Shown here: piece after piece, positions 36,425 to 63,931 of the stretch
Layout: every line of letters starts with the position of its first letter
Position numbering within the stretch: position 1 is the stretch's first letter
DNA from: Rhodoferax sp. OV413
GTDB lineage: Bacteria; Pseudomonadota; Gammaproteobacteria; Burkholderiales; Burkholderiaceae_C
Direction: 5' to 3'
DNA: 64,000 nt
Assembly: GCF_900104385.1 (NCBI RefSeq)
Contig: NZ_FNJA01000004.1
Coordinates: 186,001-250,000, forward strand
Position numbers and translations under genes: made by a program
The notes under the pieces: model-generated
The model's database searches: none
The model's input: the letters and a program-made list of their open reading frames with translations, nothing else
Told to the model about the DNA's origin: nothing

Positions 36425-36433
36425 AAGGGACGG

Positions 36434-41510: not shown

Positions 41511-41581
41511 AGCCTTCGTTCCCCCGCGCGGGGCGGGCCGCTAAGGTGGTGCAATTCATCCACTCCACTGAATGCGTTCCC

Positions 41582-46962: not shown

Positions 46963-46983
46963 GGGTAGCTTGGGATAAATCGG

Positions 46984-47574: not shown

Positions 47575-47676
47575 ACGCAGTAACGGGTAGATCGTAGATG
47601 GCCATGCGCAAACGCACAGCCTATTTTGAAGATGGCTTATTGCAACCGATTTGCCGGCCGGGTGCGGATGATTCTT

Positions 47677-47764: not shown

Positions 47765-48790
47765 ATGTTTACGTTCGACGAGCGCACCCGTTTCAACCCC
47801 CGCTGGTCACGCCGCCAATGGCTACGCGCTGCGGGCCTGGCCGGTGTGGTGGGAGCCGCTGGCGTGGCCGGCAGCAATGTGCGGGCCGCCGGCAAGCTGC
47901 GCGACATCAAGCTGGCTTGGAATGCGGGCGCAGTCTGCCTGTCGGCTGTGCCGGTGGCGCTGGAGCGCGGCATCTTTGAAAAGAACGGCCTGAACGTCGA
48001 GCTGGTGAACTTTGCCGGGTCTACCGACCAGTTGCTGGAAAGCATTGCCACCTCCAAGGCCGACGCCGGCGTGGGCATGGTGCACCGTTGGATCAAGCCC
48101 CTGGAGTCGGGCTTTGACGTCAAGCTGGTCAGCAGCTCGCATGGCGGCTGCACCCGCCTGGTGGGCTACGCTCCGGCTGGCGTGACCAGCCTGGCCAAGC
48201 TCAAAGGTAAAACGATTGCGGTATCCGACCTGAACAGCCCGGGCAAGAACTTCTTCTCGGTGCTGCTGGTCAAGGCCGGCCTGGACCCGGAGAAGGATGT
48301 GAGCTGGCGCCAGTTCCCCGCCGACATGCTGGGCCTGGCGGTAGAGAAAGGAGAAGCCCATGCGATTGCCGATGGTGACCCGAACCTGTTCCTGGTCGAA
48401 CGCCGCACCAAGGGCCTGGTCGAGCTGGCCACCAACCTGTCGGGCGAATACGCCAACAAGACCTGCTGCGTGCTGGGCGTCAGCGGCAAGCTGGTACGCA
48501 ACGACAAACCGACTGCCGCCGCACTGGCGCGCTCCATCACCGAGGCCTCGGACTTCATCGCCAACTACCCGAACGAAACTGCCAAGATCTACAGCCCCTA
48601 TTCCAAGGTGCCGGTGGAAGACCTGCGCGCCGTGCTGGGCACGCTGACGCACCGCAACCACCCCAGCGGCAACGACTTGAAGAAAGAGATCGAGTTCTAC
48701 GCCCGCGACTTCAAGCTGGTCGGCGTGCTCAAGCCCAGCACCGATCCCGCTCGCTTTGCCGAGTACGTGTACGCCGACGTATTGGCCTGA
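47765..48790 (+). CDS. Sulfonate/nitrate/taurine-type ABC binding protein 1 (Tat-exported)
   Basis: 341 residues. A twin-arginine-type leader (WSRRQWLRAAGLAGVVG) precedes the mature binding protein: IKLAWNAGAVCLSAVPVALERGIFEKNGLNVELVNFAGSTDQLLESIATSKADAGVGMVHRW and LKGKTIAVSDLNSPGKNFFSVLL. It starts an apparent operon with a permease (16 bases downstream), ATPase and membrane cytochrome. The family imports sulfonates, nitrate or related anions; ligand undetermined. Confidence 0.9.
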   Translation: MFTFDERTRFNPRWSRRQWLRAAGLAGVVGAAGVAGSNVRAAGKLRDIKLAWNAGAVCLSAVPVALERGIFEKNGLNVELVNFAGSTDQLLESIATSKADAGVGMVHRWIKPLESGFDVKLVSSSHGGCTRLVGYAPAGVTSLAKLKGKTIAVSDLNSPGKNFFSVLLVKAGLDPEKDVSWRQFPADMLGLAVEKGEAHAIADGDPNLFLVERRTKGLVELATNLSGEYANKTCCVLGVSGKLVRNDKPTAAALARSITEASDFIANYPNETAKIYSPYSKVPVEDLRAVLGTLTHRNHPSGNDLKKEIEFYARDFKLVGVLKPSTDPARFAEYVYADVLA

Positions 48791-48805
48791 CGGAGCCCCC
48801 ACGCG

Positions 48806-49849
48806 ATGACTACGGCTGAAAACATACTCTCGGCACCAACCCTGGCTCCGCGAGAACGCAACCCATCGGTAGCGGCTACCGCAGCTGGCAACTACGCACC
48901 CTGGTGGACCGGCCTGGCCGCCGGTCTGGCCTGGGGCGTGCTCGCGGTGCTGACAGGAGCCTGGCCGAACAAGCCGCTGGGTTTTAGCGAATGGGCTTAC
49001 ACCACCGAATTCGCCTGGTTTGCTGGACTGGTTTCTGTGGCTTTGCTGGCCTTGGGCCTGGCGCCGGAGCGAATCGCAGCAGTCCCAGCCAAGCTGCGCG
49101 CAGCTGGCCCCTGGCTGATCGCCCTGGCCCTGGGCCTGGCGGTGTGGGAAGTGTTTACTGCCAAGCTGGGCACTCTGCCGCCCCCCTTCTTTGCGCCACC
49201 CCAGAGCCTGGCCGAGGTCTACATCAGCGACTGGCGCCGCCTGCTGGAGAGCGCTGCCCATTCGCTGCAGCTGCTGGGCCTGGGCATAGGCATCGGTGCC
49301 TCGGTCGGCTTTCTGATTGGCGTGCTGATGGGTTGGTCGCGGCGCGCCAGCTACTGGGTGCACCCTGTGCTGCGCGTGCTCGGGCCGCTGCCCACCACGG
49401 CGCTGCTGCCGATCTCGTTCTACTTCTTCCCGTCCAGCTGGTCCACCGCGATTTTTCTGATTGCAGTTGGCACCGCGTTTCCGGTCGCCATCCTCACCGC
49501 ATCGGGTGTGGCCAGCGTCAACAAAAACTACTACGACGTGGCCCGCACCATGGGCGCATCGCCCTGGTTTCTGGTGCTGCGGGTGGCGATTCCTGCCGCC
49601 CTACCCCAGGTGTTCGTCGGCCTATTCATGGGCCTGGGCCATGCGTTTGCCACGCTGGTGGTCGCAGAGATGCTGGGCGTTAAAGCCGGCCTGGGCTGGT
49701 ACCTGACCTGGGCCCAGGGCTGGGCCGCCTACCCGAATATGTATGCCGCGCTGCTGGTGATGGCGCTGCTGTTCTCGGGCTTGATCAGTCTGTTGTTTCT
49801 TGTACGCGACCGGGTACTGTCCTGGCAAAAAGGAATCGTGAAATGGTGA
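48806..49849 (+). CDS. ABC transporter permease 1 (SsuC/TauC type) with extended N-terminus
   Basis: 347 residues, longer than the usual ~260 because two or three extra hydrophobic segments occupy residues ~30-115 (WWTGLAAGLAWGVLAVL and FAGLVSVALLALGL). The permease core has the EAA loop DVARTMGASPWFLVLRVAIPAALPQVFVGLFMGLGHAFATLVVAEMLG. It overlaps the following ATPase gene by seven bases. Confidence 0.9.
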   Translation: MTTAENILSAPTLAPRERNPSVAATAAGNYAPWWTGLAAGLAWGVLAVLTGAWPNKPLGFSEWAYTTEFAWFAGLVSVALLALGLAPERIAAVPAKLRAAGPWLIALALGLAVWEVFTAKLGTLPPPFFAPPQSLAEVYISDWRRLLESAAHSLQLLGLGIGIGASVGFLIGVLMGWSRRASYWVHPVLRVLGPLPTTALLPISFYFFPSSWSTAIFLIAVGTAFPVAILTASGVASVNKNYYDVARTMGASPWFLVLRVAIPAALPQVFVGLFMGLGHAFATLVVAEMLGVKAGLGWYLTWAQGWAAYPNMYAALLVMALLFSGLISLLFLVRDRVLSWQKGIVKW

Positions 49850-50628
49850 GCCCCGTACAGACCCAGACGAGCGCCGGCGCACACATTGCGGTGCGCAACG
49901 TCAGCCACTGGTTTGAGCAAGCCCAGGGCCCACTGCAAGTCATTGCCGACCTGGATCTGGACATCCAACCGGGAGAGTTCGTGGCCCTGCTCGGCCCCAG
50001 CGGCTGCGGCAAGTCCACGCTGCTGCGCCTGGTGGCCGGGCTGGAGCCGGCCACCACCGGCAGCCTGCAGCACGACAGCCAGCCCATCACCCAACCCGAC
50101 CCGTCGCGCATTGTGGTGTTCCAGGACCCGACGCTGTTTCCCTGGCGCACGGTGTGGAACAACGTGGCCCTAGGCCTGCAGGCGCGTGGCCTGCTGAAGA
50201 CCCAGCGGCACCGGGTCGATGAAGCGCTGGCGCTGGTTGGCCTGCAAAACTTTGCCCAGGCGCTGCCGCACCAGCTGTCGGGTGGTATGGCACAGCGCGT
50301 GGCTCTGGCGCGCGCGCTGGTCAACGACCCCAGCCTGCTGGTACTGGACGAACCGCTGGGCAAGCTGGACTCGCTGACCCGGCTGGCCATGCAGACCGAG
50401 CTGGTCGACCTGTGGCAGCGCAAGGGTTTCTCGGTGTTGCTGGTCACGCACGATGTGGAAGAAGCCTTGTTCATGGCGCAGCGCGTGGTGGTGCTGTCCG
50501 ACCGGCCCGCGCGCATCAAGCAGGTGCTGGTCAACGACCTGCCCTACCCGCGCCACCGAGGTCACCCACGGCTGGCCGAGCTGCGGCACCAGGCGCTGTC
50601 GCTGCTAGGCCTGGCGGCCAGCTGGTAG
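49843..50628 (+). CDS. ABC transporter ATPase 1 (SsuB/TauB type)
   Basis: 261 residues. Walker A GPSGCGKSTLLRL, Q-loop VFQDPTLFPWRTVWNNVALG, signature LSGGMAQRVALARAL, Walker B LLVLDEPLGKLD and THDVEEALFMA are intact. The start ATG 49843 lies inside the end of the permease gene. Energises the transporter of binding protein 1. Confidence 0.93.
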   Translation: MVSPVQTQTSAGAHIAVRNVSHWFEQAQGPLQVIADLDLDIQPGEFVALLGPSGCGKSTLLRLVAGLEPATTGSLQHDSQPITQPDPSRIVVFQDPTLFPWRTVWNNVALGLQARGLLKTQRHRVDEALALVGLQNFAQALPHQLSGGMAQRVALARALVNDPSLLVLDEPLGKLDSLTRLAMQTELVDLWQRKGFSVLLVTHDVEEALFMAQRVVVLSDRPARIKQVLVNDLPYPRHRGHPRLAELRHQALSLLGLAASW

Positions 50629-50641
50629 TTTTGCAGCACGC

Positions 50642-51799
50642 ATGGCCTGGAGTTTGCCTGCCGAAGGCCTGAACCTGCTGTTGACGGCGCTGCTGCAAGC
50701 CCAGCTGGGCCTGCGCGCAGTGCTGCATGCTCTGGGCCTGGCGCCCGACATCCACGGCCAGCCCGCCTGGCCGTTTGCCTACCGCATTGCCGGTGAAATG
50801 CTGGCCCTGGAGCCTGGCCACGCCCGCCGTGTCGTCATCTGCATCGCCTGCCTGCTGCTGGCCGGGCTGAGCCTGCTGGTCTCCCTGGCCTGGCGCCGGG
50901 CCCGGCCAGGTTTGTGGGTGTTGGCGGCAGCGGTATTGCTGCTCGCCCCCTGGCCAGAGCCGCATCTACTGCTGGCCCCAGCCGTACCCACCAGCCTGCA
51001 TGCATCGCCCACCGGCTTCACGGCGCAAGCCATTGTGCGCGGGCAGAGGGTGTACCAACAGCAGTGCGTGCGCTGCCACGGTGCCGATGGCCGGGGCGAA
51101 GGCGTGGAAGCAGCCCAGCTGCCCATGTGGCCGCCAACGCTGAACGGTTCCCTGCTGTGGAAGCGATTAGACGGAGAACTGTTCTGGCGGGTACGCCATG
51201 GCATGCGCGCGCGGGATGGCAGCAGCACCATGCCCGGTTTTGGTCCACCACTCAGCCATCTCAGCGACACCCAGGTATGGGAGGTGCTCGACTATCTGCA
51301 AGCCCATGCGGCCGGCCAGATGCTGCAAGAGTCCGGCGCCTGGACCTACCCGGTGCGCATGCCGGACGCCGCCGTGCAATGCCGCCACCAGCCACCACGC
51401 ACGCTGCACAGCCTGGATGGGCAGCGGCTGAGGGTGGTCGCCGATGCCGCAAGCGTCCAGGACGATCCCCGGCTGGTCACCGTCAACCTGGCAACCAACG
51501 CATCCGACCCCGAATGCCAGGCCAACACACCCGAGCTGCGCAGCTCTCTCGCACTGGTGCTGGGCGTGCAACCCGCGCAATTGGCCGGCCACCAATTGCT
51601 GGTGGACCGCGACGGCTGGCTGCGCGCCCGGGGCCAACCCGGTCAAGCCGACTGGTCGGCCAGCGATCTGGTGTGCCGTTCTGGTGCCGCACCGGTCGCA
51701 CTTGCCTCCACGGCAGCAGCAGGCGATGGACTGGACGGCCTGATCCGCCGGATGGACTTTGAACCCGTGCGCTTGCTGCGCGGCGGCTTTCCACATTAA
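50642..51799 (+). CDS. Membrane-anchored c-type cytochrome-like protein
   Basis: 385 residues. Two membrane segments (VVICIACLLLAGLSLLVSLAW and GLWVLAAAVLLLAPW) are followed by a cytochrome c domain with the haem motif CVRCHGADGRGEG (~residue 138) and a candidate axial Met (SSTMPGFGPPLS), typical class I. The C-terminal ~190 residues (CRHQPPRTLHSLDGQRLRVV onward) show no family I recognise. It is 13 bases behind the ABC ATPase, an unusual place for a cytochrome; it might accept electrons during oxidation of the imported compound or serve a sensor role. Confidence 0.82.
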   Translation: MAWSLPAEGLNLLLTALLQAQLGLRAVLHALGLAPDIHGQPAWPFAYRIAGEMLALEPGHARRVVICIACLLLAGLSLLVSLAWRRARPGLWVLAAAVLLLAPWPEPHLLLAPAVPTSLHASPTGFTAQAIVRGQRVYQQQCVRCHGADGRGEGVEAAQLPMWPPTLNGSLLWKRLDGELFWRVRHGMRARDGSSTMPGFGPPLSHLSDTQVWEVLDYLQAHAAGQMLQESGAWTYPVRMPDAAVQCRHQPPRTLHSLDGQRLRVVADAASVQDDPRLVTVNLATNASDPECQANTPELRSSLALVLGVQPAQLAGHQLLVDRDGWLRARGQPGQADWSASDLVCRSGAAPVALASTAAAGDGLDGLIRRMDFEPVRLLRGGFPH

Positions 51800-51940
51800 G
51801 AACCCGTTCTGGCGGCCCGTCATTCAGAAACCGCATGTAGACAGAGCTTTTTCTTCGTTGTCGCGCCCCGCCATCGCTTCTATCGTCGGCGCCATGCACC
51901 CATTCTTTTCCGCAATAGCAGACATACCCGAGGCCCAACC

Positions 51941-53095
51941 ATGAATGCCTCGCTGACCCCTGGCCAGATCGCCCGCACCTTGGCCGCAGAGTTCGCCACC
52001 CGCGCCACCGAGCATGACCGCGAAGCCAGCTTCCCTTTTGAGAACTTCAACCAGCTGCAACAGGCGGGCCTGCTGGCGCTGGCCGCGCCGCGCAAACTGG
52101 GCGGCCAAGGCGCCACGCTGGCGCAGCTCGGCGAAGTCATAGGCGCGGTCGCGCATGGCGATCCGGCGACCGCCCTGGTGCTGGTCATGCAGTACATGCA
52201 GCTCCGCAGCATGGGCTATGCCGACGGCAAGAGCCGCAGCTGGCCCCAGCACCTGGCCGAGCGCTTGGTGCGCGAATCAGTGCATTCCGTATCGCTGGTA
52301 AATGCACTGCGGGTCGAACCCGACCTGGGCTCACCCGCGCGCGGCGGCCTGCCCAGCACCATAGCCCGGCTGACGCCCGAGGGCTGGCGCTTATCGGGGC
52401 ACAAGGTGTATTCCACCGGTGCGCCCATCCTGCGCTGGTACGCGGTATGGACGCGTACCGACGAAACCCCGCCCCGGGTCGGCACGATCCTGGTACCGGC
52501 CGGTTTGCCGGGCATCCGCACCATCGAAACCTGGGACCACCTGGGACTGCGCGCCAGTGGCAGCCACGACATCGTGTTCGACGACGTGCTGGTGCCGCTG
52601 GACAACGCAATCGACCTGCGCCTGCCGCAAGACTGGGGCCCTGGCGACCCGAGCCTGCAAGCCGACATGGCCGTACTGCTGGGCGCGCTGTACAGCGGCA
52701 TCGCCCGCGCCGCGCGCGACTGGGTGGTCGAATTTCTGCGCCAGCGCAAACCGGCGAACCTGGGCGCAGCCCTGGCCACCCTGCCGCGCGCCCAAGAGAT
52801 CGTCGGCACTATCCAGGGCCTGCTGCTCACCAATGAGCGCCTGCTGGCCAGCCTGGCCCGCGATGTGGACAGCGGCACGCCAGTGACAGCCACCGACAGC
52901 GGCCTGATCAAGTCGCTGGTCACCAATAACGCTGTGCAAGCCGTAGAGGCCGCGCTGTCGCTCAGCAGCAACCACGGCCTGTCACGCAAGAACCCGCTGG
53001 AACGCCATCTGCGCGACGTGCTGTGCGGGCGCATCCATACGCCGCAGGACGACAGTGCCCGCATAGCTGCCGGCAAGCAGATCCTGATTTCTTAA
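51941..53095 (+). CDS. Acyl-CoA-dehydrogenase-like flavoprotein (SfnB/DszC monooxygenase type)
   Basis: 384 residues. ACAD fold: FENFNQLQQAGLLALAAPRKLGGQGATLAQLGEVIGAVAHGDPATALVLVMQY, then WRLSGHKVYSTGAPILRWYAVW, LGLRASGSHDIVFDDVLVP and SSNHGLSRKNPLERHLRDVLCGRIHTPQDD. The usual catalytic Glu of true acyl-CoA dehydrogenases is not evident, and the H-x-x-R-D-x-L pattern resembles FMN monooxygenases of SfnB/DszC/DmoA context used in organosulfur oxidation. A 141-base gap upstream may hold its own promoter. Confidence 0.85.
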   Translation: MNASLTPGQIARTLAAEFATRATEHDREASFPFENFNQLQQAGLLALAAPRKLGGQGATLAQLGEVIGAVAHGDPATALVLVMQYMQLRSMGYADGKSRSWPQHLAERLVRESVHSVSLVNALRVEPDLGSPARGGLPSTIARLTPEGWRLSGHKVYSTGAPILRWYAVWTRTDETPPRVGTILVPAGLPGIRTIETWDHLGLRASGSHDIVFDDVLVPLDNAIDLRLPQDWGPGDPSLQADMAVLLGALYSGIARAARDWVVEFLRQRKPANLGAALATLPRAQEIVGTIQGLLLTNERLLASLARDVDSGTPVTATDSGLIKSLVTNNAVQAVEAALSLSSNHGLSRKNPLERHLRDVLCGRIHTPQDDSARIAAGKQILIS

Positions 53096-53111
53096 CGACC
53101 CATTCCACACC

Positions 53112-54050
53112 ATGCAAAGACGTACCTTCCAACAATTCCTGTCCGCTGCGGCCTTTCTGTCGCCCGTGCTCGGCCATACCCAAACCCGCGCCGTGGTGCG
53201 CGCAGGCGACCAAAAGGGCGGCCTGCGTGCCCTGCTGGAAGCCGCGGGCGAACTCAAGAGCCTGCCCTACGACATCCAGTGGACCGAGTTCCCCGCCGCC
53301 GCCCCGCTGGCCGAAGCCTTGAATGCCGACGCGGTGGACTTCGGGCCAATAGGCGATGCCCCCTTGCTGTTTTCGCTGGCTGCGGGCAGCCGGGTCAAGG
53401 CCTTTGCAGTCAACCGCTCCGACCCCTATGGCACGGCCATCCTGGTGGCGCCCAATTCGCCACTCAAAGATGCCAGCAGCCTGAAGGGCAAAAGCGTGGC
53501 CACCAACCGCGGCTCCATCGGCCACTTCGTGACCCTGAAGGCGCTGGCCTCGGTGGGCCTGAAAGCCGAAGACATCAATCTGCGCTTTCTGGCCCCGCCA
53601 GATGCCAAGCTGGCACTGACCCAGGGCTCGGTCGATGCCTGGGCCACCTGGGAGCCGTATACCGCGCTGGCCGAAACCGGTGGCCATGCGCGCGTGCTGG
53701 TGAACGGGCGCGGCCTCTGGAGCGGCCTGAGCTTCCTGGCCGCCACAGACAACGCCTTGCGCGACAAGCGCAACCACCTGCAAGACCTGCAGCAGCGCAT
53801 CGTGCGCGCCCAGGCCTGGGCAAGCCAACACCCTGCAGAGTTCAGCGCCACCCTGGCCCGCATCATCGGCATCCCCGCCGAGGCGGCACGCCTGCAGTTC
53901 GAGCGCCGCCAGACCCGCTGGCAATCGATAGACGCCCAGGTCGTGGCCGACCAGCAGCGCACCGCCGACTTCTATCTGGACGCCGGACTGATCAAGCAAA
54001 AGCTGGATGTGCGCGCCACCTTCGATACCGGCCTGCCGCTCGCCGCCTGA
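53112..54050 (+). CDS. Sulfonate-type ABC binding protein 2 (SsuA-like)
   Basis: 312 residues with an N-terminal signal (MQRRTFQQFLSAAAFLSPVLGHTQ). Mature features VVRAGDQKGGLRALLEAAGEL, WTEFPAAAPLAEALNADAVDFGPIGDAPLLFSLAAGS and LKGKSVATNRGSIGHFVTLKAL correspond to SsuA/aliphatic sulfonate binding proteins. It begins the second transporter set and is followed 21 bases later by its permease. Confidence 0.92.
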   Translation: MQRRTFQQFLSAAAFLSPVLGHTQTRAVVRAGDQKGGLRALLEAAGELKSLPYDIQWTEFPAAAPLAEALNADAVDFGPIGDAPLLFSLAAGSRVKAFAVNRSDPYGTAILVAPNSPLKDASSLKGKSVATNRGSIGHFVTLKALASVGLKAEDINLRFLAPPDAKLALTQGSVDAWATWEPYTALAETGGHARVLVNGRGLWSGLSFLAATDNALRDKRNHLQDLQQRIVRAQAWASQHPAEFSATLARIIGIPAEAARLQFERRQTRWQSIDAQVVADQQRTADFYLDAGLIKQKLDVRATFDTGLPLAA

Positions 54051-54071
54051 TCCCTACCGAAAGCAAGCACC

Positions 54072-54932
54072 ATGTCTGACGCTTCTGCCAGCCTGCCGCT
54101 CGCGGCCCGCATCGCCGGTATCGCCCCGCCACCGACCCAGCGCCCGCGCACAGCGCGCCTGGACGGTACCCGCTTTGCCCTGCTGTCTTGGCTGGTGCCG
54201 CTGACCATCGTGCTGGTATGGGAGGCCGCCGCTCGTGCCGGCCTGCTGTCGCTGCAGGTACTGCCGGCGCCGAGCCGGGTGTTGCGCACCGCGCTCGATT
54301 TGATCGCCGAAGGCCGGCTGGTCAGCGATATGGGCGTCAGCCTGCTGCGCGCCGCAGTCGGCTTTGTGATCGGTGGCTCCATCGGTTTTGTGCTGGGCAC
54401 CCTGGTCGGTTTTTCGCGCCTGGCCGAGGCCCTGCTGGACCGCAGCATCCAGATGGTGCGGGCGATCCCTTTTCTGGCTTTGCTGCCGCTGGTCATCGTC
54501 TGGTTTGGCGTGGACGAAGGCGGCAAAATCTTTCTGGTGGCGCTGGGCGTGGCGTTTCCGATCTACATCAACACCGTGCTGGGCATACGCCAGGTCGACC
54601 CCAAGCTGATCGAACTGGGCAGGGTGATCGGCCTCGACAACTGGGCCCTGGTACGGCGTATCGTGCTACCCGGCGCGCTGCCCTCCATCCTGACCGGCGT
54701 GCGCTATGCCCTGGCCACAGCCTGGCTGGCGCTGGTGGTGGCCGAGACCATTGCCACCACATCGGGCATAGGCTTTCTGGCCATGGATGCGCGCGAGTTT
54801 CTGCGCACCGATGTGATCGTGCTAGCCATCGTGGTCTATGCGCTGATCGGCATGTCGGCCGACGCCATCACCCGCACGCTGGAGCGGCGCCTGCTGGCCT
54901 GGCATCCCAATTTTTCCAAGAGCACCGCATGA
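54072..54932 (+). CDS. Sulfonate-type ABC permease 2 (SsuC-like)
   Basis: 286 residues, about six membrane segments; EAA loop ELGRVIGLDNWALVRRIVLPGALPSILTGVRYALATAWLALVVAETIATTSGIGFLAMDAREF. It ends in a four-base ATGA overlap with the ATPase gene. Confidence 0.93.
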   Translation: MSDASASLPLAARIAGIAPPPTQRPRTARLDGTRFALLSWLVPLTIVLVWEAAARAGLLSLQVLPAPSRVLRTALDLIAEGRLVSDMGVSLLRAAVGFVIGGSIGFVLGTLVGFSRLAEALLDRSIQMVRAIPFLALLPLVIVWFGVDEGGKIFLVALGVAFPIYINTVLGIRQVDPKLIELGRVIGLDNWALVRRIVLPGALPSILTGVRYALATAWLALVVAETIATTSGIGFLAMDAREFLRTDVIVLAIVVYALIGMSADAITRTLERRLLAWHPNFSKSTA

Positions 54933-55651
54933 GCCACGCCAACGAACAAGCGGTCGCCGTGCGCGGTCTGAAGCGGGCCTACGGACAACGCACCGTCATC
55001 AACAGTCTCGACCTGACCATCCAGCGCGGCGAATTCGTCGCCCTGCTCGGCGAAAGCGGCTGCGGCAAGACCACGTTGCTGCGCGCGCTGGCCGGGCTGG
55101 ATGCGGTGGACGCTGGGCACATCGATGGCCCGGCCCGGCCCGCCGTGGTGTTCCAGGAACACCGCTTGCTGCCCTGGGACCCGCTGTGGCGCAATGTGGC
55201 GCTGGGCATCAGCGGCAGCGACGTGCGCGCCCGCGCTGAGGCCGCGCTGGCCGAAGTCGGCCTGGCCGACCGGGCCGACGACTGGCCGCGCAACCTGTCG
55301 GGCGGGCAGGCCCAGCGCGTGGCACTGGCCCGGGCTCTGGTACAGGAGCCGCGCCTGCTGCTGCTGGACGAGCCCTTTGCCGCACTCGATGCGCTTACCC
55401 GCATCCGCATGCAAGGCCTGGTGAAGCAACTGGTAGCGCACCACCGCCCCGGTGTGCTGCTGGTGACCCACGATGTGGACGAAGCCATCACCCTGGCCGA
55501 CCGCGCGCTGGTGATGCGCAACGGCGCGATTGCCGCGCAGTACAGCGTGTCCGCAGCCGCGCGCCAGCACCGCTCGCACCCAGATGCGATAGCGCTGCGC
55601 GACACCTTGCTGGCCGAGCTGGGCGTGGCCAACGAAGCCCTGGCAGCCTGA
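54929..55651 (+). CDS. Sulfonate-type ABC ATPase 2 (SsuB-like)
   Basis: 240 residues from the ATG at 54929. Walker A GESGCGKTTLLRA, VFQEHRLLPWDPLWRNVALG, LSGGQAQRVALARAL, LLLLDEPFAALDALTRIRMQ and THDVDEAITLADRAL closely match SsuB. Translationally coupled to the permease. Confidence 0.94.
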   Translation: MSHANEQAVAVRGLKRAYGQRTVINSLDLTIQRGEFVALLGESGCGKTTLLRALAGLDAVDAGHIDGPARPAVVFQEHRLLPWDPLWRNVALGISGSDVRARAEAALAEVGLADRADDWPRNLSGGQAQRVALARALVQEPRLLLLDEPFAALDALTRIRMQGLVKQLVAHHRPGVLLVTHDVDEAITLADRALVMRNGAIAAQYSVSAAARQHRSHPDAIALRDTLLAELGVANEALAA

Positions 55652-55687
55652 TTTCAACCCCACTCTTTTCAACTCCCTGGATACCCC

Positions 55688-56689
55688 ATGCCTTTACTGA
55701 GCGACAGCCTTTCCGCCGTGTCCCGCCGCGATTTCCTGCAACACGGTGCCGCCGCGCTGGGCGCCGCCAGCACCCTGCCCGCCTGGGCCGCACGCAGCGG
55801 CCGCAATACCGACACCGTACGCCTGGGCTGGGGCCGGGGCGGCCTGCCGCTGCTGGCCAAGCAGCGCGGCGAGTTCGAGAAGCTGCTGGCCAAGGACAAC
55901 ATCAAGGTGCAGTGGATTGGCCCCTTCCCCAACCATGCGCCCTCGCTGCAAGCCGTCACCGGCGGCAGCGCCGACTTCGGCTTCGGCGGCAGCACCACGC
56001 CCGCGCTGGCGGCCATCATTGCCGGCTCGCCCCTGGTGTTCACCAACTTCCTCGTGGTCAACCCACGCAGCACGGCCATCATCGCCAAGGATTCGTCGGG
56101 CATCAAAGGCATCAAGGACCTGGTGGGCAAATCGGTGGCGGTGAACCGCTCGGGCCTGGGCGAATTCCTGCTGGTAGCCGCGCTGGAAAAGCACGGTGTC
56201 GACCGCAAGCAGGTCAAGTTCGTGTACCTGAACCCACCGGATGCCGGCCCGGCTTTCGCCCAGGGCAAGATCGACGCCTGGTCGATGTGGAGCCCGGGCG
56301 TAGACATCGCGCGCAGCGAATACAAGGCACACAACATCTTCTTCGAAGGCTCGGACCTGGACTTCGGCATCGACTTCAGCTCGTGGCTGACGACCCGCAA
56401 GTTTGCCGACGAAAACCCGGACATCGTGCGCGCGGTGAATGCGGCTTTTGTCGCCGAAGGCCTGTGGGCCAGCACCCACCCGCTGGAGGCAGAGCTGATC
56501 AACCAAAAAGAAGGCGGCTATTCCGATACGGTGCGCGACACGCTGGCTGGCTTTAAGCGCAGCTACGACTTCTATGGCATCGAAGACGCCAAGTTTGTGA
56601 AAGGCCTGCAGTTCGCCGCCGACTGGCTGAGCGAGCGCCAGATCCTGCCGCAAAAGGTCAAGATCAGCGACCACCTGGCCCGGCTGTGA
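55688..56689 (+). CDS. Sulfonate-type ABC binding protein 3 (Tat-exported)
   Basis: 333 residues with a twin-arginine leader (SRRDFLQHGAAALGAAS). Mature part: TVRLGWGRGGLPLLAKQRGEFEKLLAKDNIKVQWIGPFPNHAPSLQAVTGGSADFGFGGSTTPALAAIIAGSP and IKDLVGKSVAVNRSGLGEFLLVAALEKHGVD. A second binding protein for the permease/ATPase just upstream is the simplest reading, giving it a wider substrate range. Followed 18 bases later by the molybdoenzyme gene. Confidence 0.9.
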   Translation: MPLLSDSLSAVSRRDFLQHGAAALGAASTLPAWAARSGRNTDTVRLGWGRGGLPLLAKQRGEFEKLLAKDNIKVQWIGPFPNHAPSLQAVTGGSADFGFGGSTTPALAAIIAGSPLVFTNFLVVNPRSTAIIAKDSSGIKGIKDLVGKSVAVNRSGLGEFLLVAALEKHGVDRKQVKFVYLNPPDAGPAFAQGKIDAWSMWSPGVDIARSEYKAHNIFFEGSDLDFGIDFSSWLTTRKFADENPDIVRAVNAAFVAEGLWASTHPLEAELINQKEGGYSDTVRDTLAGFKRSYDFYGIEDAKFVKGLQFAADWLSERQILPQKVKISDHLARL

Positions 56690-56707
56690 TGCGGCAGCAA
56701 TAACGCT

Positions 56708-58993
56708 GTGGGTTTCACCTCTACCCACTGGGGCGTATACCGGCCGGTGGTCGAGTCTGGCCGCTTGCAGGCACTGGAGGCCGCACCCTGGGACCGCGAT
56801 CCGTCGCCCATAGGTGCGTCCTTGCCTGAGGCCATCACCGCCGCAGCCCGGATTCGCCGGCCCGCGGTGCGCGAGGGCTTTCTGCGCGCCGCCGAGCGCG
56901 GCAATACCGCTGCCAGCCCACGCCGCCGCGGCCAGGAGGCGCTGGTCGAAGTGCCCTGGGACGAGGCACTGGACCTGGTAGCCGCCGAGCTGCAGCGCGT
57001 GCGCGCTGCGCACGGCAACGAGGCCATTTTTGGCGGCAGCTACGGCTGGGCCAGCGCCGGGCGCTTCCACCATGCGCAAGGCCAGCTGCACCGCTTTCTG
57101 AACGGCTTCGGCGGCTATGCCTATGGGGTCGACACCTACAGCCTGGGCGCGGGCCGCGTGCTGCTGCCACACATCGTCGGCAGCATGGACACGCTGCTGC
57201 AGCAACATACTTCCTGGGACGTGCTGGAGCAGCATTGCGAATTGTTTGTCGCCTTCGGCGGCCTGCCGCTGAAGAACGCCCAGGTCAGCCCCGGCGGCGC
57301 CAGCGACCACCAGCTGCGCGGCGCACTGCAGCGGCTGGCCCAGGGCGGCACCCGCTTCGTCAACATCAGCCCGGTACGCGGCGACCTGGACGGCGTGCCC
57401 GAGGCCGAATGGCTACCGGTCCGCCCCGGCAGCGACACCGCGCTGATGCTGGCCCTGGCCCAGGTCTGGCTGTCCGAAGGCTGGCACGACCAGGCGTTTC
57501 TGGACCGCTACACCGTAGGTTTCGAACGCTTTGCCGACTATCTGCGCGGCCGCGTGGACGGCGTGGCCAAAACCCCGGCCTGGGCGACCGAGCGCACCGG
57601 CATCAGCGCCACCAGCATCACCGCGCTGGCGCAACGCATGGCGCACAGCCGCACCCTCATCAACACCGCCTACGCCTTGCAGCGCGCACGCCATGGCGAG
57701 CAGCCGTTCTGGATGACGGTGGTGCTGGCCGCCATGCTGGGCCAGATCGGCCTGCCCGGCGGCGGCTTCGGCCTGGGCTATGGCTGCATGAACAATACCG
57801 GCAGCGGCCGCGCGCCGTTTTCCGGGCCACGCCTGCCGCAGGGCAGCAATCCGGTAACGGCCTACATCCCGGTCGCCCGGCTGGTCGACATGCTGCTGCA
57901 GCCCGGCGCGGCCTTTGAATACAACGGCCGGCATCTGCGCTACCCCGACATCCGCCTGGTCTACTGGGCCGGTGGTAACCCCTTCCACCACCACCAGGAC
58001 CTGAACCGCACAGTGGCAGCATGGCAGCGGCCGGAAACCATCGTCGTGCATGAGCCGTTCTGGACTGCCAGCGCCCGCCATGCCGACATCGTGCTGCCGG
58101 CCACCACACCGCTGGAGCGGGACGACATCGGCAGCGCGGCCAGCGACCGCTTCATGGTCGCAATGCAGGCCGCCATTGCGCCGGTGGGCGAGGCCCGCGA
58201 CGACTACGCGATCTTTGCCGCCCTGGCCGAGCGCCTGGGCTTTGGCGCGCACTTCACCGAAGGCCGCAGCGTACCCCAGTGGCTGGAGCATCTCTACGAA
58301 GGCTCGCGCGAGCGCGCCGCCGCCCATGGCATCACCCTGCCCGGCTTTGCGGCCTTCTGGCAGCAAGGACTGTTCGAGGTGCCGCAGCCGGCCCAGCCCA
58401 CGGTGCTGCTGCAAGAGTTTCGCGCCGACCCGCTGGCCCACCCCTTGCCCACGCCTTCAGGGCGCATCGAGATCCACTCGGACACCATCGCAGGCTTTGA
58501 CTACAGCGACTGCCCGGGCCACCCCGTGTGGTTCGAACCCGAGGCCTCGGCCTGGCCACTGCATCTGCTGTCCAACCAGCCAGCCACCCGGCTACACAGC
58601 CAGTACGACCACGGCGCGCTCAGCCGGGACTCCAAGATTGCCGGGCGCGAGCCGATGCAGATGCACCCGGCCGATGCGGCCGCGCGCGGCATTGCCGACG
58701 GCAGCGTGGTACGGGTCTACAACCAGCGCGGTGCCTTTCTGGCCGGGGTGCGGCTGAGTACCGGCATCGCGCCCGGCGTGCTGCAGATCGCCACTGGCGC
58801 CTGGTACGACCCGCTGGACCCGGCACAACCAGGCTCGCTGGACAAGCACGGCAACCCGAACCTGACCACGCCCGACACCGGCAGCTCCCGGCTGTCGCAG
58901 GGTTGCTCGGCACAAAGCACGACCGTGGAGGTGGCACCATGGACCGAGCCACTGCCCGACATCAGCGCGTTTGCACCGCCGCCTCTGCGCTAA
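56708..58993 (+). CDS. Molybdopterin oxidoreductase of the DMSO/biotin sulfoxide reductase family (BisC-like)
   Basis: 761 residues from a GTG; no twin-arginine leader, so it is likely cytoplasmic like BisC. The start THWGVYRPVVESGRL and the region GGSYGWASAGRFHHAQGQLHRFL match the family; the Ser in GGSYGW is the Mo ligand in DMSO/TMAO/biotin-sulfoxide reductases. No N-terminal 4Fe-4S cysteines, as expected for this subfamily. Cofactor-binding segments include NISPVRGDLDG, MLGQIGLPGGGFGLGYG and VYWAGGNPFHHHQDLNR. Probably reduces a sulfoxide (methionine, biotin or an imported one). Convergent with the ferredoxin gene, one base apart. Confidence 0.9.
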   Translation: MGFTSTHWGVYRPVVESGRLQALEAAPWDRDPSPIGASLPEAITAAARIRRPAVREGFLRAAERGNTAASPRRRGQEALVEVPWDEALDLVAAELQRVRAAHGNEAIFGGSYGWASAGRFHHAQGQLHRFLNGFGGYAYGVDTYSLGAGRVLLPHIVGSMDTLLQQHTSWDVLEQHCELFVAFGGLPLKNAQVSPGGASDHQLRGALQRLAQGGTRFVNISPVRGDLDGVPEAEWLPVRPGSDTALMLALAQVWLSEGWHDQAFLDRYTVGFERFADYLRGRVDGVAKTPAWATERTGISATSITALAQRMAHSRTLINTAYALQRARHGEQPFWMTVVLAAMLGQIGLPGGGFGLGYGCMNNTGSGRAPFSGPRLPQGSNPVTAYIPVARLVDMLLQPGAAFEYNGRHLRYPDIRLVYWAGGNPFHHHQDLNRTVAAWQRPETIVVHEPFWTASARHADIVLPATTPLERDDIGSAASDRFMVAMQAAIAPVGEARDDYAIFAALAERLGFGAHFTEGRSVPQWLEHLYEGSRERAAAHGITLPGFAAFWQQGLFEVPQPAQPTVLLQEFRADPLAHPLPTPSGRIEIHSDTIAGFDYSDCPGHPVWFEPEASAWPLHLLSNQPATRLHSQYDHGALSRDSKIAGREPMQMHPADAAARGIADGSVVRVYNQRGAFLAGVRLSTGIAPGVLQIATGAWYDPLDPAQPGSLDKHGNPNLTTPDTGSSRLSQGCSAQSTTVEVAPWTEPLPDISAFAPPPLR

Positions 58994-58994
58994 C

Positions 58995-59387
58995 CTAAAA
59001 AGACTCCGAACGGGTACTCAAGGCTTGCTCCGCGCGCTGCTGCGCCAGCACTGCGCCCCGGGCAAACACCTCCTCCATGCGCCAATGCTGGTTGGCGTAG
59101 CGTGGGTCGGCCTGCCATTCGTCCCAGCCGGAATCGCGCCGGTACACCCCCAGCAGGCCGCTGGCGCGCACGGCGGCGGCGTCCACCGGCACCAGGCGGT
59201 ATACCGTGGGGTCGACAAACAAGGCATCCGCCTGGCAATACAGTTCGCAGGCAAAGCAGGTCTGGCAGTCCTGGGGGCGGGCGATGGTGGGCGGCGCGTT
59301 GTGCCCCGCATCCAGCACCTGGGCCGGGCAAATCTGCACACAGCGCTGGCAGCTGGTACAGCGGTCGGTCAGCAACAAGGCAATCAT
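58995..59387 (-). CDS. 4Fe-4S ferredoxin-type subunit (AprB-like)
   Basis: 130 residues. Two cluster motifs: CTSCQRCVQICPAQ (CxxCxxCxxxCP, residues ~10-20) and CQTCFACELYCQADA (~41-52). The C-terminal ~70 residues (YRRDSGWDEWQADPRYANQHWRMEEVF) are an extension. The ATG overlaps the stop of the flavoprotein gene (ATGA), so the two proteins form a complex. It resembles the AprB/FeS partner of AprA-like flavoproteins by arrangement. Confidence 0.88.
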   Translation of the reverse strand: MIALLLTDRCTSCQRCVQICPAQVLDAGHNAPPTIARPQDCQTCFACELYCQADALFVDPTVYRLVPVDAAAVRASGLLGVYRRDSGWDEWQADPRYANQHWRMEEVFARGAVLAQQRAEQALSTRSESF

Positions 59388-60988
59388 GCGGATATAGCTT
59401 CGGGCTGGAGGCTGCGTTCAGGGCGGTGCCAGACCTGGGCCAACCCGCCTACCGTGGTGCGGTGGGCCTGGCCTGGGTCGGCACGGGGCATGTCGGTGCG
59501 GCGGTGCATGCCCCGGCTTTCGGTGCGGGCCAGGGCCGCCGCGGCGCACCAGCGGGCCGTTGCCAGCAGCGCCGCCGTCTCGCGGGTGCGCAGCACACTG
59601 CGGCCACTGCCTTGCGCGTGGGCACTGAAGCTGTGCCACGCACTGTCGAGCTGCGCCTTGGAACGCGCCAGCGCCGGTCCGCTGCGGAAGATATTCAGGT
59701 CGTAGTCCAGCATGGGCCTCTGCAGCGTGGCCAGCACCGCCGCATTGTCCACGGCAGCCACATGCTGGTGCGGCCGCAAGCCGGCCTGGCCGGCGGCATG
59801 CACGGCCCCAGTGGCGCGGCGGCCAGCGCGGCGGGCGCGCTCTGCCGCACCCTGCCCCGCCCACAGACCCGATGACAGAGCCCATGCCGAATTGATGTTG
59901 CCGCCGCCCGATATGGCACCCGCTACCAGCTCACGTGTGGCGGTATCACCCGCGGCAAACAGGTTGGGTACGGTGGTTTCGCAGGCGTCGTTGACGATGC
60001 GCAGGCCACCGATGCCACGCACCGTGCCTTCGCCGCGCAGGGTGACTTCAAAGCGGTCCTTGAACGGGTCAATGCCGCGCCGGGTGAACGGCAGCATCAC
60101 ATTCGGCGAGATGGTGGGCAATGCCGCACGCAGATCGTCGGGTGTCAGGTCCAGCGTGCAATACACCGGGCCTTGCAGCAGCGCAGACGCCAAGGCCGTG
60201 GTCTGGCTGGGGCCGGGCGCAATGTGCAGGTCGCGCCCCGATGTATCGAAGTAGCGAGCAAACACATAGGACATGGACCGCGTCATCGATGAAAACGCCG
60301 GTGCCACGGTGTAGTAGTTGCTGAACTCCATACCCGACAGCTCGGCCCCGGCCTCGGCGGCCATCAGGTAACCGTCGCCGGTGTTGTTGTCGGCCCCCAG
60401 CAGCCTGGACAGGAACGCACAGCCGCCGGTGGCCAGCACCACGGCGCCCGCGCGCACCTCCCAGGCAGCCTGGCTTTGGCGCTGCAGGCCGCGGGCTCCG
60501 GCTACGCTGCCATCGGCATGTTGCAGCAGCTCCAGCACCGGGCTGTGGTCCAGCACTCGCACGCCTGCAGCCTCCACCAGGCCGCGTAAGACCCGCATGT
60601 ACTCGGGCCCACGCAACGAGCGGAACACCGGCTTGCCCTGCGCATCGTAAGGAAAGGGGTAATGGGGCGCGAGGCTGGGCAAGTGCTGCCAGGTGGTGTC
60701 GAGGATGCGGTGCATCCAGTGGGCATCGGCCAGGCCCTCACCGGCGGCCAGGCGCTTGGCCACGGCAGCGTCGCGCAAAGGCGGGGCGATCCACCAGTGG
60801 CCGGGACCGGCTGTGGCGGTGACCCCGCTGGTGCCGCAGTAGCCTTTGTCGACCAGCACCACCTGGGCGCCGGCCCGTGCTGCACCAAGTGCGGCCCAGG
60901 CCCCTGCCAGCCCCCCACCGACAACCAAGACATCCGTTTGCAGCTTGCAAGTGTTCGGCGAGGACCAGGCGTGGAAGGAATCAGTCAT
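59384..60988 (-). CDS. FAD-dependent oxidoreductase of the fumarate reductase/AprA-like family
   Basis: 534 residues from the ATG at 60988. FAD site: TDVLVVGGGLAGAWAALGAARAGAQVVLVDKGYCGTSG near the N-terminus; capping domain residues GPGHWWIAPPLRD; C-terminal FAD segment VPNLFAAGDTATRELVAGAISGGGNINSAWALSSG. The pattern fits the succinate dehydrogenase/fumarate reductase flavoprotein family, and with a two-cluster ferredoxin subunit it recalls APS-reductase-like AprAB pairs. Whether it uses a sulfur substrate is inference from context. It follows metQ by 54 bases on the same strand. Confidence 0.87.
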   Translation of the reverse strand: MTDSFHAWSSPNTCKLQTDVLVVGGGLAGAWAALGAARAGAQVVLVDKGYCGTSGVTATAGPGHWWIAPPLRDAAVAKRLAAGEGLADAHWMHRILDTTWQHLPSLAPHYPFPYDAQGKPVFRSLRGPEYMRVLRGLVEAAGVRVLDHSPVLELLQHADGSVAGARGLQRQSQAAWEVRAGAVVLATGGCAFLSRLLGADNNTGDGYLMAAEAGAELSGMEFSNYYTVAPAFSSMTRSMSYVFARYFDTSGRDLHIAPGPSQTTALASALLQGPVYCTLDLTPDDLRAALPTISPNVMLPFTRRGIDPFKDRFEVTLRGEGTVRGIGGLRIVNDACETTVPNLFAAGDTATRELVAGAISGGGNINSAWALSSGLWAGQGAAERARRAGRRATGAVHAAGQAGLRPHQHVAAVDNAAVLATLQRPMLDYDLNIFRSGPALARSKAQLDSAWHSFSAHAQGSGRSVLRTRETAALLATARWCAAAALARTESRGMHRRTDMPRADPGQAHRTTVGGLAQVWHRPERSLQPEAISA

Positions 60989-61042
60989 GCCCCAAATGCT
61001 ATCGGCCACAGCCGCTGGGGCAACGATGCATTCCGTATATGG

Positions 61043-61837
61043 TTAGAAGCCCGCCAGCACCGCGCCCTTGAACTCGGTCTGGATGTACTTGCGTATTTCG
61101 TCCGAGTGGTAGGCCGTCACCAGCTTGGCGACCCAGGGCTTGTCTTTGTCCTGGTCGCGCACAGCCAGCAGGTTCACGTAGGGGCTCTTGGCGTTTTCCT
61201 GGGCAATGGCGTCCTTGGGGTTCAGGCCGGCCGACAGCGCGTAGTTGGTGTTGACGGCCGAGGCGTCCAAATCATCCAGCGTGCGTGGCAGCTGGGCTGC
61301 ATCGACTTCGACAAACTTGATCTTCTTCGGGTTGTCGATCACGTCCAACGGCGTGGCTTTCAGACCCGCATCGGGCTTGAGCTTGATCAGTCCCTTGTCC
61401 TGGAACACCAGCAGCACACGGCCGCCATTGGTGGGGTCGTTGGGGATGCCGACACGCGCGCCCTCCTTCAGCTCGTTCAGGCTTTTGACCTTCTTCGAAT
61501 AGATGCCGATGGGGAAGTTGACGGTATAACCCACGGACACGATCTTGTAGCTGCGATCCTTGACCTGCTGGTCCAGATAGGGCTTGTGCTGGTAGCTGTT
61601 GGCGTCCAGGTCGCCGGCGGCCAGCGCGGCGTTCGGCTGGATGTAGTCGCTGAACTCGACGATCTGGATCTTCAGGCCGTCCTTCTCGGCGATCTTCTTC
61701 ACCTGCTCGAAGATCTGCGCGTGCGGGCCGGCGGTGACGCCGATCTTCAGCGGTTTGTCCTGCGCCAGCAGGCTGCCCGACAGCGAGGCCAGCAGTGCCA
61801 GTGACAGAGCGGATTGGATCAAGTTACGTTTGTTCAT
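61043..61837 (-). CDS. metQ: Methionine-type ABC binding protein (NlpA/MetQ family)
   Basis: 264 residues from the ATG at 61837; MNKRNLIQSALSLALLASLSGSLLAQ is a signal peptide. Mature part KIGVTAGPHAQIFEQVKKIAEKDGLKIQIVEFSDYIQPNAALAAGDLDANSYQHKPYLDQQVKDR, NDPTNGGRVLLVFQDKGLI and VNTNYALSAGLNP match MetQ. The lipobox of E. coli MetQ is not obvious here. Receives D/L-methionine or a derivative for MetNI. Confidence 0.93.
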   Translation of the reverse strand: MNKRNLIQSALSLALLASLSGSLLAQDKPLKIGVTAGPHAQIFEQVKKIAEKDGLKIQIVEFSDYIQPNAALAAGDLDANSYQHKPYLDQQVKDRSYKIVSVGYTVNFPIGIYSKKVKSLNELKEGARVGIPNDPTNGGRVLLVFQDKGLIKLKPDAGLKATPLDVIDNPKKIKFVEVDAAQLPRTLDDLDASAVNTNYALSAGLNPKDAIAQENAKSPYVNLLAVRDQDKDKPWVAKLVTAYHSDEIRKYIQTEFKGAVLAGF

Positions 61838-61876
61838 GGCAAGGTCTTTCAAGTAAAAAAGGGGAATACGCGGCCC

Positions 61877-61895
61877 CACGTTCAGACTGAACGTG
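61877..61895 (-). repeat. Inverted repeat in the metI-metQ gap
   Basis: CACGTTCAGACTGAACGTG is a perfect 9-bp inverted repeat around one base, in the 160-base gap between metI and metQ, 40 bases before the metQ start. Could act as an operator or, in RNA, as a stabilising or attenuating hairpin. Confidence 0.5.
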
Positions 61896-61901
61896 CGCCA
61901 C

Positions 61902-61988
61902 CAGGGATACCGTGGAACCGGCTTTGCCGGGCCACTGGTATCGCCCCCTGCAAGGGGGTTGGCGAAGACACGAAGTGCGTAGCCTGGG
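61902..61988. repeat. REP-like structured intergenic element in the metI-metQ gap
   Basis: Contains nested inverted pieces: GGATACC pairs with GGTATC, CCGGC with GCCGG, and CCCCCTGCAAGGGGG is a separate hairpin. It resembles REP-type elements known in related betaproteobacteria; only one copy is seen in this window. Confidence 0.5.
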
Positions 61989-61997
61989 GGTGAGTCA

Positions 61998-62663
61998 CTA
62001 CTTATGGCTGAGGCGGCGGACGAACCAGTCGCCGAGGCTCTGTAACGCCTGCACGAAGACGATCAGCACCAGCACCACGGCCAGCATGACCTCGGGCAAA
62101 AAGCGCTGGTAGCCGTAGCGGATGCCCAGGTCGCCCAGGCCGCCGCCACCGATGGCACCGGCCATGGCCGAGTAACCGGTCAGGCTGACCAGGGTGATGG
62201 TCAGGCCGGCGACGATGCCGGGCAAGGCCTCGGGCAACAGCACTTTGAAGACGATCTGCCGGGTGCTGGCGCCCATGGCCTGCGCGGCTTCGACCAGGCC
62301 GTGGTCGACTTCGCGCAGCGCGGTTTCCACCAGCCGGGCGATGAAGGGCGCGGCGGCAATCGTCAGCGGCACTACCGCCGCCATCGTGCCGATGGACGAA
62401 CCTGTCAATAAGCGCGTCAGCGGAATGATGGCCACCAGCAAGATGATGAAAGGCGTGGAGCGCACCGCGTTGACGACGCCACCGACAGTGCGGTTCAGCG
62501 CCGGGTTGTGCAGCACGCCACCGTGGTCGGTCAAGCGCAGGAACACGCCCAGCGGCACGCCGATCAGCGCGCCCACCGCACCGGAGATGCCGACCATCAC
62601 CAGCGTCTCCCAGAACGAAGACGCAAACAGCTCCAGCAATTGCGGGGTAAAGGTATCAAACAT
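61998..62663 (-). CDS. metI: Methionine ABC transporter permease
   Basis: 221 residues with five to six membrane segments. [33 protein letters not shown] at the start and the EAA loop [64 protein letters not shown] are typical MetI. It overlaps metN by eight bases. Confidence 0.95.
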
Positions 62664-63696
62664 GCGCCACCTCCTGTACTAGAACACCGGCACCGCGCAG
62701 GTGCGCGACGGCGGCTGTCAGTTGCTCGCGGGCACCGCGCACATGCACGGCCAGCGCGCCAAACGGTCGGCCCTGGATCTCGTCGACCTGGCCGTGCAGG
62801 ATGTTCAGGTCCAGCCCGAAGCGACGGATCACGTCCGACAGCAGCGGCCGGTCCGAGTCGTCGCCCGCAAATGCCAGCCGCAGCAGCTGGCCTTGCTGGG
62901 CCGGCTCGGTGGCCATCAGCTTGCGGATGCGTGCCAGCACGCTCTCGGGCAGGTCCTGCGGCACGATCTCGGCGATCAGGCTGCGGGTGGTGGCGTGTTG
63001 CGGGCGGGTGAACACGTCGATCACCGCGCCCTGCTCCACGATGCGGCCGGCGTCTATTACCGCCACCCGGTCGGCCACCTGCTTGATCACCTGCATCTGG
63101 TGGGTGATCAGCACAATGGTCAAACCGAAGTCGCGGTTGATCTGGCGTAGCAGGCCCAAAATGGAACGGGTAGTTTCCGGGTCCAGCGCCGAAGTGGCTT
63201 CGTCGGACAGCAAGACCTTGGGGTTGCTGGCCAGCGCGCGGGCAATGCCTACGCGTTGCTTTTGCCCGCCGCTGATCTGCGCCGGGTAGCGGTCCCGCAG
63301 CGCCGACAGGCCGACCAGGTCCAGCAGGTCATCGACCCGCGCCTTGATCAGCGCCGGCCGGGTGCCGGCCAGCTCCAGCGGCAGCGCCACATTGTCAAAA
63401 ATTGTCCGTGAGGACAGCAGGTTGAAGTGCTGGAACACCATGCCGATCTGGTGCCGGGCAGCACGCAGATCGGGGGCGCTCAGCGCCGTCAGGTCGCGTC
63501 CATCGACGCGGACCTGGCCTTCTGAGGGCCGGTTCAACAGGTTGATCACACGCACCAGCGAGCTTTTGCCCGCGCCGCTGCGCCCGATCACCCCGAAAAT
63601 TTCACCCGCCTGTATCTGCAGGTCGATGCCCTGCAGTGCTTGCACCGGGCCTTGTGGGCCGGGGTAAGTCTGGTGGATGTTGTGTAACTCAATCAT
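62656..63696 (-). CDS. metN: Methionine ABC transporter ATPase
   Basis: 346 residues. [53 protein letters not shown] includes Walker [34 protein letters not shown] includes signature and Walker B; the C-terminal ~90 residues are the MetN regulatory (NIL) domain that binds methionine and inhibits transport ([74 protein letters not shown]). Confidence 0.95.
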
Positions 63697-63715
63697 GTCG
63701 TGGCGATGCCGGTCC

Positions 63716-63931
63716 TCACAGCTTGGCGATGGAGACTTCGGTGGACTTGACCAGCGCGACCACTTCGCTGCCGACCTTCAGCTCCAGGTCGACCACAGAG
63801 CGGGTGGTGATGACCGAGGTGACGATGCCCCAGGGGGTTTCGACATCGATTTCCGACACGACATCGCCGCGGATGATTTCTTTGATCTTGCCGCGGAACT
63901 GGTTGCGCACATTGATAGCTTGGATGGACAT
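63716..63931 (-). CDS. Mop/TOBE-domain molybdate-binding protein (molbindin)
   Basis: 71 residues from the ATG at 63931, which has AAGGAG about ten bases upstream. [34 protein letters not shown] and [33 protein letters not shown] are the standard Mop domain. Molbindins store or buffer molybdate. It is the first gene of the metNIQ operon, converging with the BisC-like molybdoenzyme gene set, which gives it an obvious purpose. Confidence 0.92.

Follow-up and report, generated by a model that had tools for sequence, protein, structure and literature searches.

What brings genes for sulfonate-type and methionine transport, a molybdoenzyme and a flavoprotein-ferredoxin pair together in one place is the question raised by a stretch of 64,000 nucleotides from Rhodoferax sp. 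OV413 (contig NZ_FNJA01000004.1, positions 186,001 to 250,000; hereafter the window, with positions counted from its first base). A preliminary description had proposed an organosulfur island in which two convergent gene sets cooperate, and all the genes that it named were found in place. On the plus strand, the gene for a molybdoenzyme of the BisC/dimethyl sulfoxide (DMSO) reductase family, here MO (56708..58993), ends with the TAA at 58991-58993 and faces a minus-strand ferredoxin gene, asfB (58995..59387), that ends with the TAG at 58997-58995; as had been stated, a single base, 58994, lies between the stops. The minus strand is read in the order mop, metN, metI, metQ, asfA, asfB. We consider it probable that the locus is a sulfur-starvation island built of separately conserved modules, in which AsfAB most likely feeds an oxygenase and MO most likely reduces an S-oxide. 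The gene content bears out sulfur scavenging; the extent first given to the island does not stand, since its genes run past the window and, on the left, reach back to 40524. The individual parts are known, AsfAB and SsuEADCBF having already been described; what is new is how the modules of this sulfur island are combined, for metNIQ, asfAB and the MO cassette were seen together in the window alone, with no further instance among the 90 AsfAB loci or the stretches of genome G194. The earlier remark that no described system has exactly this set is not supported as far as AsfAB and SsuEADCBF are concerned.

The gene asfA (59384..61009, minus strand, with a further ATG at 60985) encodes a flavin adenine dinucleotide (FAD) flavoprotein of the SdhA/FrdA/AprA superfamily and overlaps asfB by 4 bases; AsfB matches Pfam Fer4 families and displays two CxxCxxCxxxC motifs in its translation. 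On the CH34 megaplasmid of C. metallidurans, AsfA matches a single place (E <= 1e-60; 49.8% identity over 89% of the query), adjoined by a ferredoxin gene. In passages of PMC2864759, AsfA/AsfB appear as Rmet_4334/5 and asfRAB is assigned to this megaplasmid; as the searched record carries no gene names, we equate the match with Rmet_4334 by its replicon and its uniqueness. According to passages of a review (PMC4267179), P. putida S-313 with a transposon in asfA lost growth on aromatic sulfonates and kept it on aliphatic ones; the same review names sulfonates as the dominant form of organic sulfur available in soil and takes asfA as the marker gene for arylsulfonate use. Judged by sequence, what was previously called an AprA-like flavoprotein and ferredoxin should rather bear the name of the known arylsulfonate pair, AsfA/AsfB. 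As in asfRABC of P. putida S-313 and asfRAB of CH34, asfA is followed by an overlapping asfB, with sulfonate-type ATP-binding cassette (ABC) genes nearby; unlike those systems, the window has neither a recognised asfR beside asfAB nor an asfC-type binding-protein gene directly after asfB, while metQ directly precedes asfA (33 to 57 bases away, by the asfA start chosen) and a BisC-like cassette follows asfB in convergent orientation.

AsfA is present in 11 of 200 same-family genomes, the genome of the window included (E <= 1e-60), and a wider genome collection holds at least 248 candidate stretches with AsfA relatives. The best 80 of these gave 79 retained loci, among them Proteobacteria, Actinobacteria, Cyanobacteria and Bacillota, which together with 12 from family genomes, and after removal of one duplicate, make up the 90 AsfAB loci. 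A ferredoxin gene adjoins asfA in 86 of them; in two of the four exceptions the sequence breaks off inside asfA or shortly behind it. Two asfAB pairs per locus were seen in L039 (8.0-12 kb), L053, L076, L088, L093, L095, L098 and L108. Near asfAB, and on the same strand, L032, L034, L035, L037, L074 and L105 encode TonB-dependent receptors of one family, about 860 residues long, which might provide an outer-membrane port; the hosts are alpha-proteobacteria and one Pseudomonas.

Linkage around AsfAB is partial but above chance for NtaA/DmoA-family monooxygenases, MetI and MO. It was counted in 49 genomes taken from the 79 collection loci (50 named, 29 left out), with expectations that assume random gene placement, rounded genome sizes and 21.5 kb per locus, some loci being shorter. 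The NtaA/DmoA family has 39 matches in 19 genomes, ten of them within AsfAB loci against 0.15 expected (P about 2e-15, uncorrected for relatedness), as counted by matching gene positions to AsfAB locus ranges and from tblastn matches; in the other nine genomes the gene is placed away from AsfAB. For MetI there are 54 matches in 36 genomes, with five inside AsfAB loci against 0.18 expected (P 1.4e-6); three of these five are from Bradyrhizobium, and counting three lineages gives P 8.7e-4. MO-type genes (E <= 1e-200) yield 20 matches in 19 genomes, three near AsfAB against 0.065 expected (P 4.4e-5, likewise uncorrected) and the remaining 16 genomes with MO elsewhere. In the family sample, the three MOs that are 67% or more identical all fall in the 11 AsfA genomes (P 1.3e-4, or 2.3e-3 with the genome of the window excluded). 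In four of the 90 loci MO and AsfAB are no more than 10 kb apart, and in G194 they are separated by 9.3 kb; the MO-AsfA distance is 5 to 6 kb in four Azospirillum plasmid records.

Which enzyme AsfAB might serve is suggested by the first of these neighbours. The window encodes an NtaA/DmoA-family flavin mononucleotide (FMN)-dependent monooxygenase (41546..42934, plus strand) that passes TIGR03860 (548 bits, cut-off 279.7) and has its top matches to solved YtnJ/MoxC, in keeping with a family that also includes DszA and dimethyl-sulfide monooxygenase; unlike those relatives, enzymes of this kind are here recurrently placed with AsfAB, and relatives of the window protein adjoin it at 84% identity in L017 and 68% in L163. 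This enzyme is the best candidate here for AsfAB's oxygenase and could be the missing enzyme of the arylsulfonate pathway, and its recurrence offers a testable gene for that pathway. Among the matches listed from titles and abstract openings of the open-licence PMC literature, none linked AsfAB to an NtaA/DmoA or a BisC-like enzyme. Beside the monooxygenase gene stands one for a CysB-family LysR regulator (40524..41468, plus strand; NCBIfam NF009327, 467 bits, cut-off 402). Since a GNAT-like gene (identified by eye), pyrF and others intervene before the sulfur genes on the right, the left part is not a continuous sulfur block.

The minus-strand genes on the far side of asfAB probably belong to a different unit. 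They comprise mop/ssuF for a single-domain molbindin (63716..63931; TIGR00638, 59.2 bits, cut-off 55), a metN-like ATPase gene (62656..63696; TIGR02314, 401 bits against a cut-off of 499.7), metI (61998..62663; NF008049, 242 bits, cut-off 212) and metQ (61043..61879; TIGR00363, 266 bits, cut-off 228.9; NF008285, 281 against 374). Past the window (L029), the same strand continues away from asfAB with genes for a nitroreductase (malonic semialdehyde reductase model), MetY, SsuB and SsuC, and further out for a VOC protein (by eye), SsuD, SsuA, SsuE and a sulfate-binding protein. As in the ssuEADCBF operon, ssuE, ssuA, ssuD, ssuC, ssuB and the molbindin gene ssuF share one strand; unlike in that operon, the VOC gene separates ssuD from ssuC, metY and the nitroreductase gene separate ssuB from mop, and metNIQ-asfAB follow. 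In genome G012 (L145), ssuE-A-D-C-B-mop-metN-I-Q run in a single direction. Among the 200 same-family genomes (MO limit E <= 1e-150), Mop occurs in 76, SsuD in 68 and both in 61; in 39 of these 61 mop and ssuD are no more than 7 kb apart, 38 of the pairs being on the same strand. No MO was found in 71 of the 76 genomes with Mop. A molybdopterin-binding SsuF is described for the Pseudomonas ssu locus in part of another report (PMC8079746). Because Mop is linked with ssuD, most Mop genomes are without MO and SsuF has been described, a role of the molbindin for MO is unlikely; as predicted from family and linkage, it is SsuF, closing an ssu operon, and the idea that it buffers molybdate for MO has to be given up.

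Around mop, two loci (L140, L154) have it next to a sulfate-binding gene, with or without ssuE, and with no ssuADCB in the stretch examined. In L139, the gene for a family 2A encapsulin shell, that for the cysteine desulfurase it carries as cargo and a serine-acetyltransferase-like gene (L139:7016-11169) share a 20 kb stretch with mop, and the set recurs near mop in L141, L145, L146, L149, L150 and L154, which suggests a sulfur storage link to the mop locus; in the genome of the window, the encapsulin shell gene is on another contig (C5:785312).

MO forms a plus-strand cassette with PERM2, an SsuC-like permease (54072..54932), ATP2, an SsuB-like ATPase (54929..55651), and SBP3, an SsuA-like binding protein with a twin-arginine signal (55688..56689; TIGR01728, 153.9 bits, cut-off 163.5; TIGR01409, 20.2, cut-off 16.7). 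Like S- and N-oxide reductases of its family, MO aligns over its full length with solved DMSO and trimethylamine N-oxide reductases; it differs in falling under the TIGR00509 (bisC_fam) cut-off (933 bits, cut-off 1017.6), in lacking a leader peptide, from which we infer a cytoplasmic location, and in having an SsuA-type transporter next to it. By analogy with these families, the most likely activity of MO is reduction of an S-oxide that this transporter takes up. The four cassette genes PERM2-ATP2-SBP3-MO stand without interruption in the window and likewise in G194 (L126), a Rhodoferax metagenome-assembled genome (L030) and a Variovorax paradoxus VAI-C plasmid. In G068 a single strand carries, in order, ACD (an acyl-CoA-dehydrogenase-like flavoprotein described below), rhodanese, PERM2-ATP2-SBP3, SBP2-PERM-ATP, AsfA, AsfB, an SsuD-like LLM protein and MO. 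A rule that MO is always paired with AsfAB fits the MOs of at least 65% identity in G000, G068, G194, L030 and L096, and was rejected on the VAI-C plasmid, whose MO is 69% identical.

Comparison with congeners separates the modules further. In G039, 76 bases replace window positions 54057-61046, a 7 kb stretch from PERM2 to asfA, and ACD and SBP2 adjoin metQ. In G039 an in-frame stop interrupts SBP2 and an internal part of the ACD gene is missing (L139:11160-13104), signs of module decay, so that gain of the block in the window genome and loss in G039 are both possible. Congener G162 has no AsfA, MO or SsuD at the limits used. The make-up of the island in these genomes shows bacterial gain and loss of such gene sets.

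Left of the MO cassette lies a third module. A thiol dioxygenase gene of cysteine-dioxygenase-like type (46984..47577, minus; Pfam PF05995, E 1.6e-9) and a gene for a four-domain rhodanese protein (45364..46962, minus; PF00581, four stretches), together spanning 45364-47577, diverge from a plus-strand set: SBP1, an NMT1/SsuA-like substrate-binding protein (47765..48790; PF09084; SsuA_fam 77.9 bits, under the cut-off of 163.5), the permease PERM1 (48806..49849), the ATPase ATP1 (49843..50628), a cytochrome c protein with an additional C-terminal region (50642..51799; PF13442, residues 131-219 of 385) and ACD, which is SfnB-related (51941..53095; TIGR04022, 115 bits, cut-off 430.9). SBP2, an SsuA-family substrate-binding protein (53112..54050; TIGR01728, 215.5 bits, cut-off 163.5), follows. 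ACD shares acyl-CoA dehydrogenase domains and a sulfur context with SfnB and 3-sulfinopropanoyl-CoA desulfinase; it differs in scoring far under both cut-offs. The set recurs with an SsuD-like LLM gene, as thiol dioxygenase, rhodanese, SBP1-PERM1-ATP1-cytochrome, LLM and ACD, in L146 and L149, both from genomes without AsfA. The window has no LLM gene between cytochrome and ACD, and beside AsfAB in G051 (L017) the thiol dioxygenase/rhodanese-SBP1-ACD module is likewise without it.

Hence, we posit an island that would be induced by sulfur starvation and would combine three units: a core common to relatives, consisting of the Ssu system for alkanesulfonates with its SsuF molbindin, followed by metY and metNIQ; the 7 kb block of asfAB and PERM2-ATP2-SBP3-MO, missing in the congener; and the thiol dioxygenase and rhodanese coupled to SBP1-PERM1-ATP1-cytochrome-ACD. 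Each transporter would import one class of organosulfur compound, from which cytoplasmic flavin, non-heme iron or molybdenum enzymes would free sulfite or a reduced sulfur compound. SsuED would desulfonate alkanesulfonates; AsfAB would pass electrons to an oxygenase, plausibly the NtaA/DmoA FMN monooxygenase, for arylsulfonate desulfonation; and MO would reduce an S-oxide delivered by its own transporter. The sulfite so freed would be reduced to sulfide and taken up by MetY, and would also enter cysteine synthesis.

Several observations weigh against this proposal. Next to asfAB no gene could be recognised as a regulator's, the nearest CysB-type gene being 18 kb off with pyrF and others between. 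NtaA/DmoA-like genes are found in only 33 of the 90 AsfAB loci (36 of 92 by tblastn), and the usual source of FMNH2 for FMN monooxygenases of this kind is a reductase like SsuE rather than a ferredoxin. Since 86 of the 90 loci have no MO and 85 no MetI in the stretch examined (MetI being near AsfAB in five), and since the MO cassette of the VAI-C plasmid comes without AsfAB in the 26 kb examined, the pairings of AsfAB with MO or MetI are not obligate. The proposed link between the two strands, for which a neighbourhood conservation search had been suggested as a check, is borne out in some relatives: MO and AsfAB are close in four loci, G194 and the Azospirillum records, and AsfAB is associated above chance with MetI as well as with MO, but most loci are without MO.

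Other readings of the same genes have to be set against this. Methionine sulfoxide had been put forward as the common substrate, imported by MetNIQ and reduced by the BisC relative, with the molbindin buffering molybdate for the reductase. MetNIQ and an enzyme of the DMSO-reductase family that is 42% identical to E. coli BisC are indeed neighbours, genes for MetQ/NlpA-type proteins come up no more than 20 kb from MO on one Variovorax and one Azospirillum plasmid, and a methionine sulfoxide reductase that contains molybdenum (TorZ/MtsZ) is on record (PMC5122715). Nevertheless, we hold this reading to be very unlikely, given that MO has its own SsuA-type transporter adjacent, that metNIQ-mop occurs without MO of this kind in G039 and G012, that mop follows ssuD and is mostly found where MO is missing, and that MetNIQ, AsfAB and MO meet in no other examined locus. 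It is doubtful, if somewhat less so, that AsfAB is the electron donor of MO, the convergent pair forming one cytoplasmic ferredoxin-driven S-oxide reductase. The genes stand tail to tail one base apart, converge in Novosphingobium (L062) too and share a strand in G068 with the LLM gene alone between them; MO also exceeds its expected count in AsfAB loci, and in the tree the four beta-proteobacterial AsfAB-linked MOs form one supported clade (99/97). However, the Azospirillum and Novosphingobium MOs fall elsewhere, so that the six AsfAB-linked MOs are not monophyletic (the linkage label has to change three times on the tree, a value attained in 6 of 500 shuffles); only three of the 19 AsfA genomes with MO have it near AsfAB, Variovorax has the cassette without AsfAB, and AsfAB loci without MO are the rule.

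That AsfAB does sulfur chemistry itself, in the manner of adenylylsulfate or 3'-phosphoadenylylsulfate (PAPS) reductase, rather than serving an oxygenase, appears highly improbable. An FAD subunit with a two-cluster ferredoxin is the layout of AprAB, and the predicted AsfA structure (mean predicted local distance difference test score 89.1) resembles the PAPS reductase alpha subunit (template modelling score by query 0.74-0.77) and AprA (0.67-0.75). Yet fumarate reductase and succinate dehydrogenase resemble it about equally (0.62-0.78 in the listed rows, of which they have the best E-value), and the fold is therefore not diagnostic. By E-value, FrdA/SdhA and PAPS reductase rank above AprA in both sequence and fold matches; the name AprA-like, while right as to superfamily, was dropped as a specific identity because the fold search puts both at least as high. 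At the alignment column that we take to be the histidine holding FAD covalently in fumarate reductase, the profile alignment has a glycine in AsfA, and its flavin is for this reason probably not covalently bound. An extension of the reading we favour, in which AsfAB is a redox module shared by the NtaA/DmoA monooxygenase in many loci and by the BisC-like MO in some proteobacteria, strikes us as unlikely; if true, it would set an oxygen-independent beside an oxygen-dependent route in a single island and make NtaA/DmoA the long-unnamed arylsulfonate oxygenase.

Riboswitch control of the sulfur genes was considered and dropped, as Rfam models at gathering scores found no element at any of them in the window and L029, the only matches being TPP, nhaA-I and tRNA. 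The thiamine pyrophosphate (TPP) riboswitch, at 36330-36430 on the minus strand, is upstream of a thiamine-type ABC system recognised by eye, with binding protein (35270-36292), permease (32127-33722) and ATPase (31490-32164). The nhaA-I RNA, at 16137-16192 on the plus strand, lies ahead of an open reading frame at 16216-17481.

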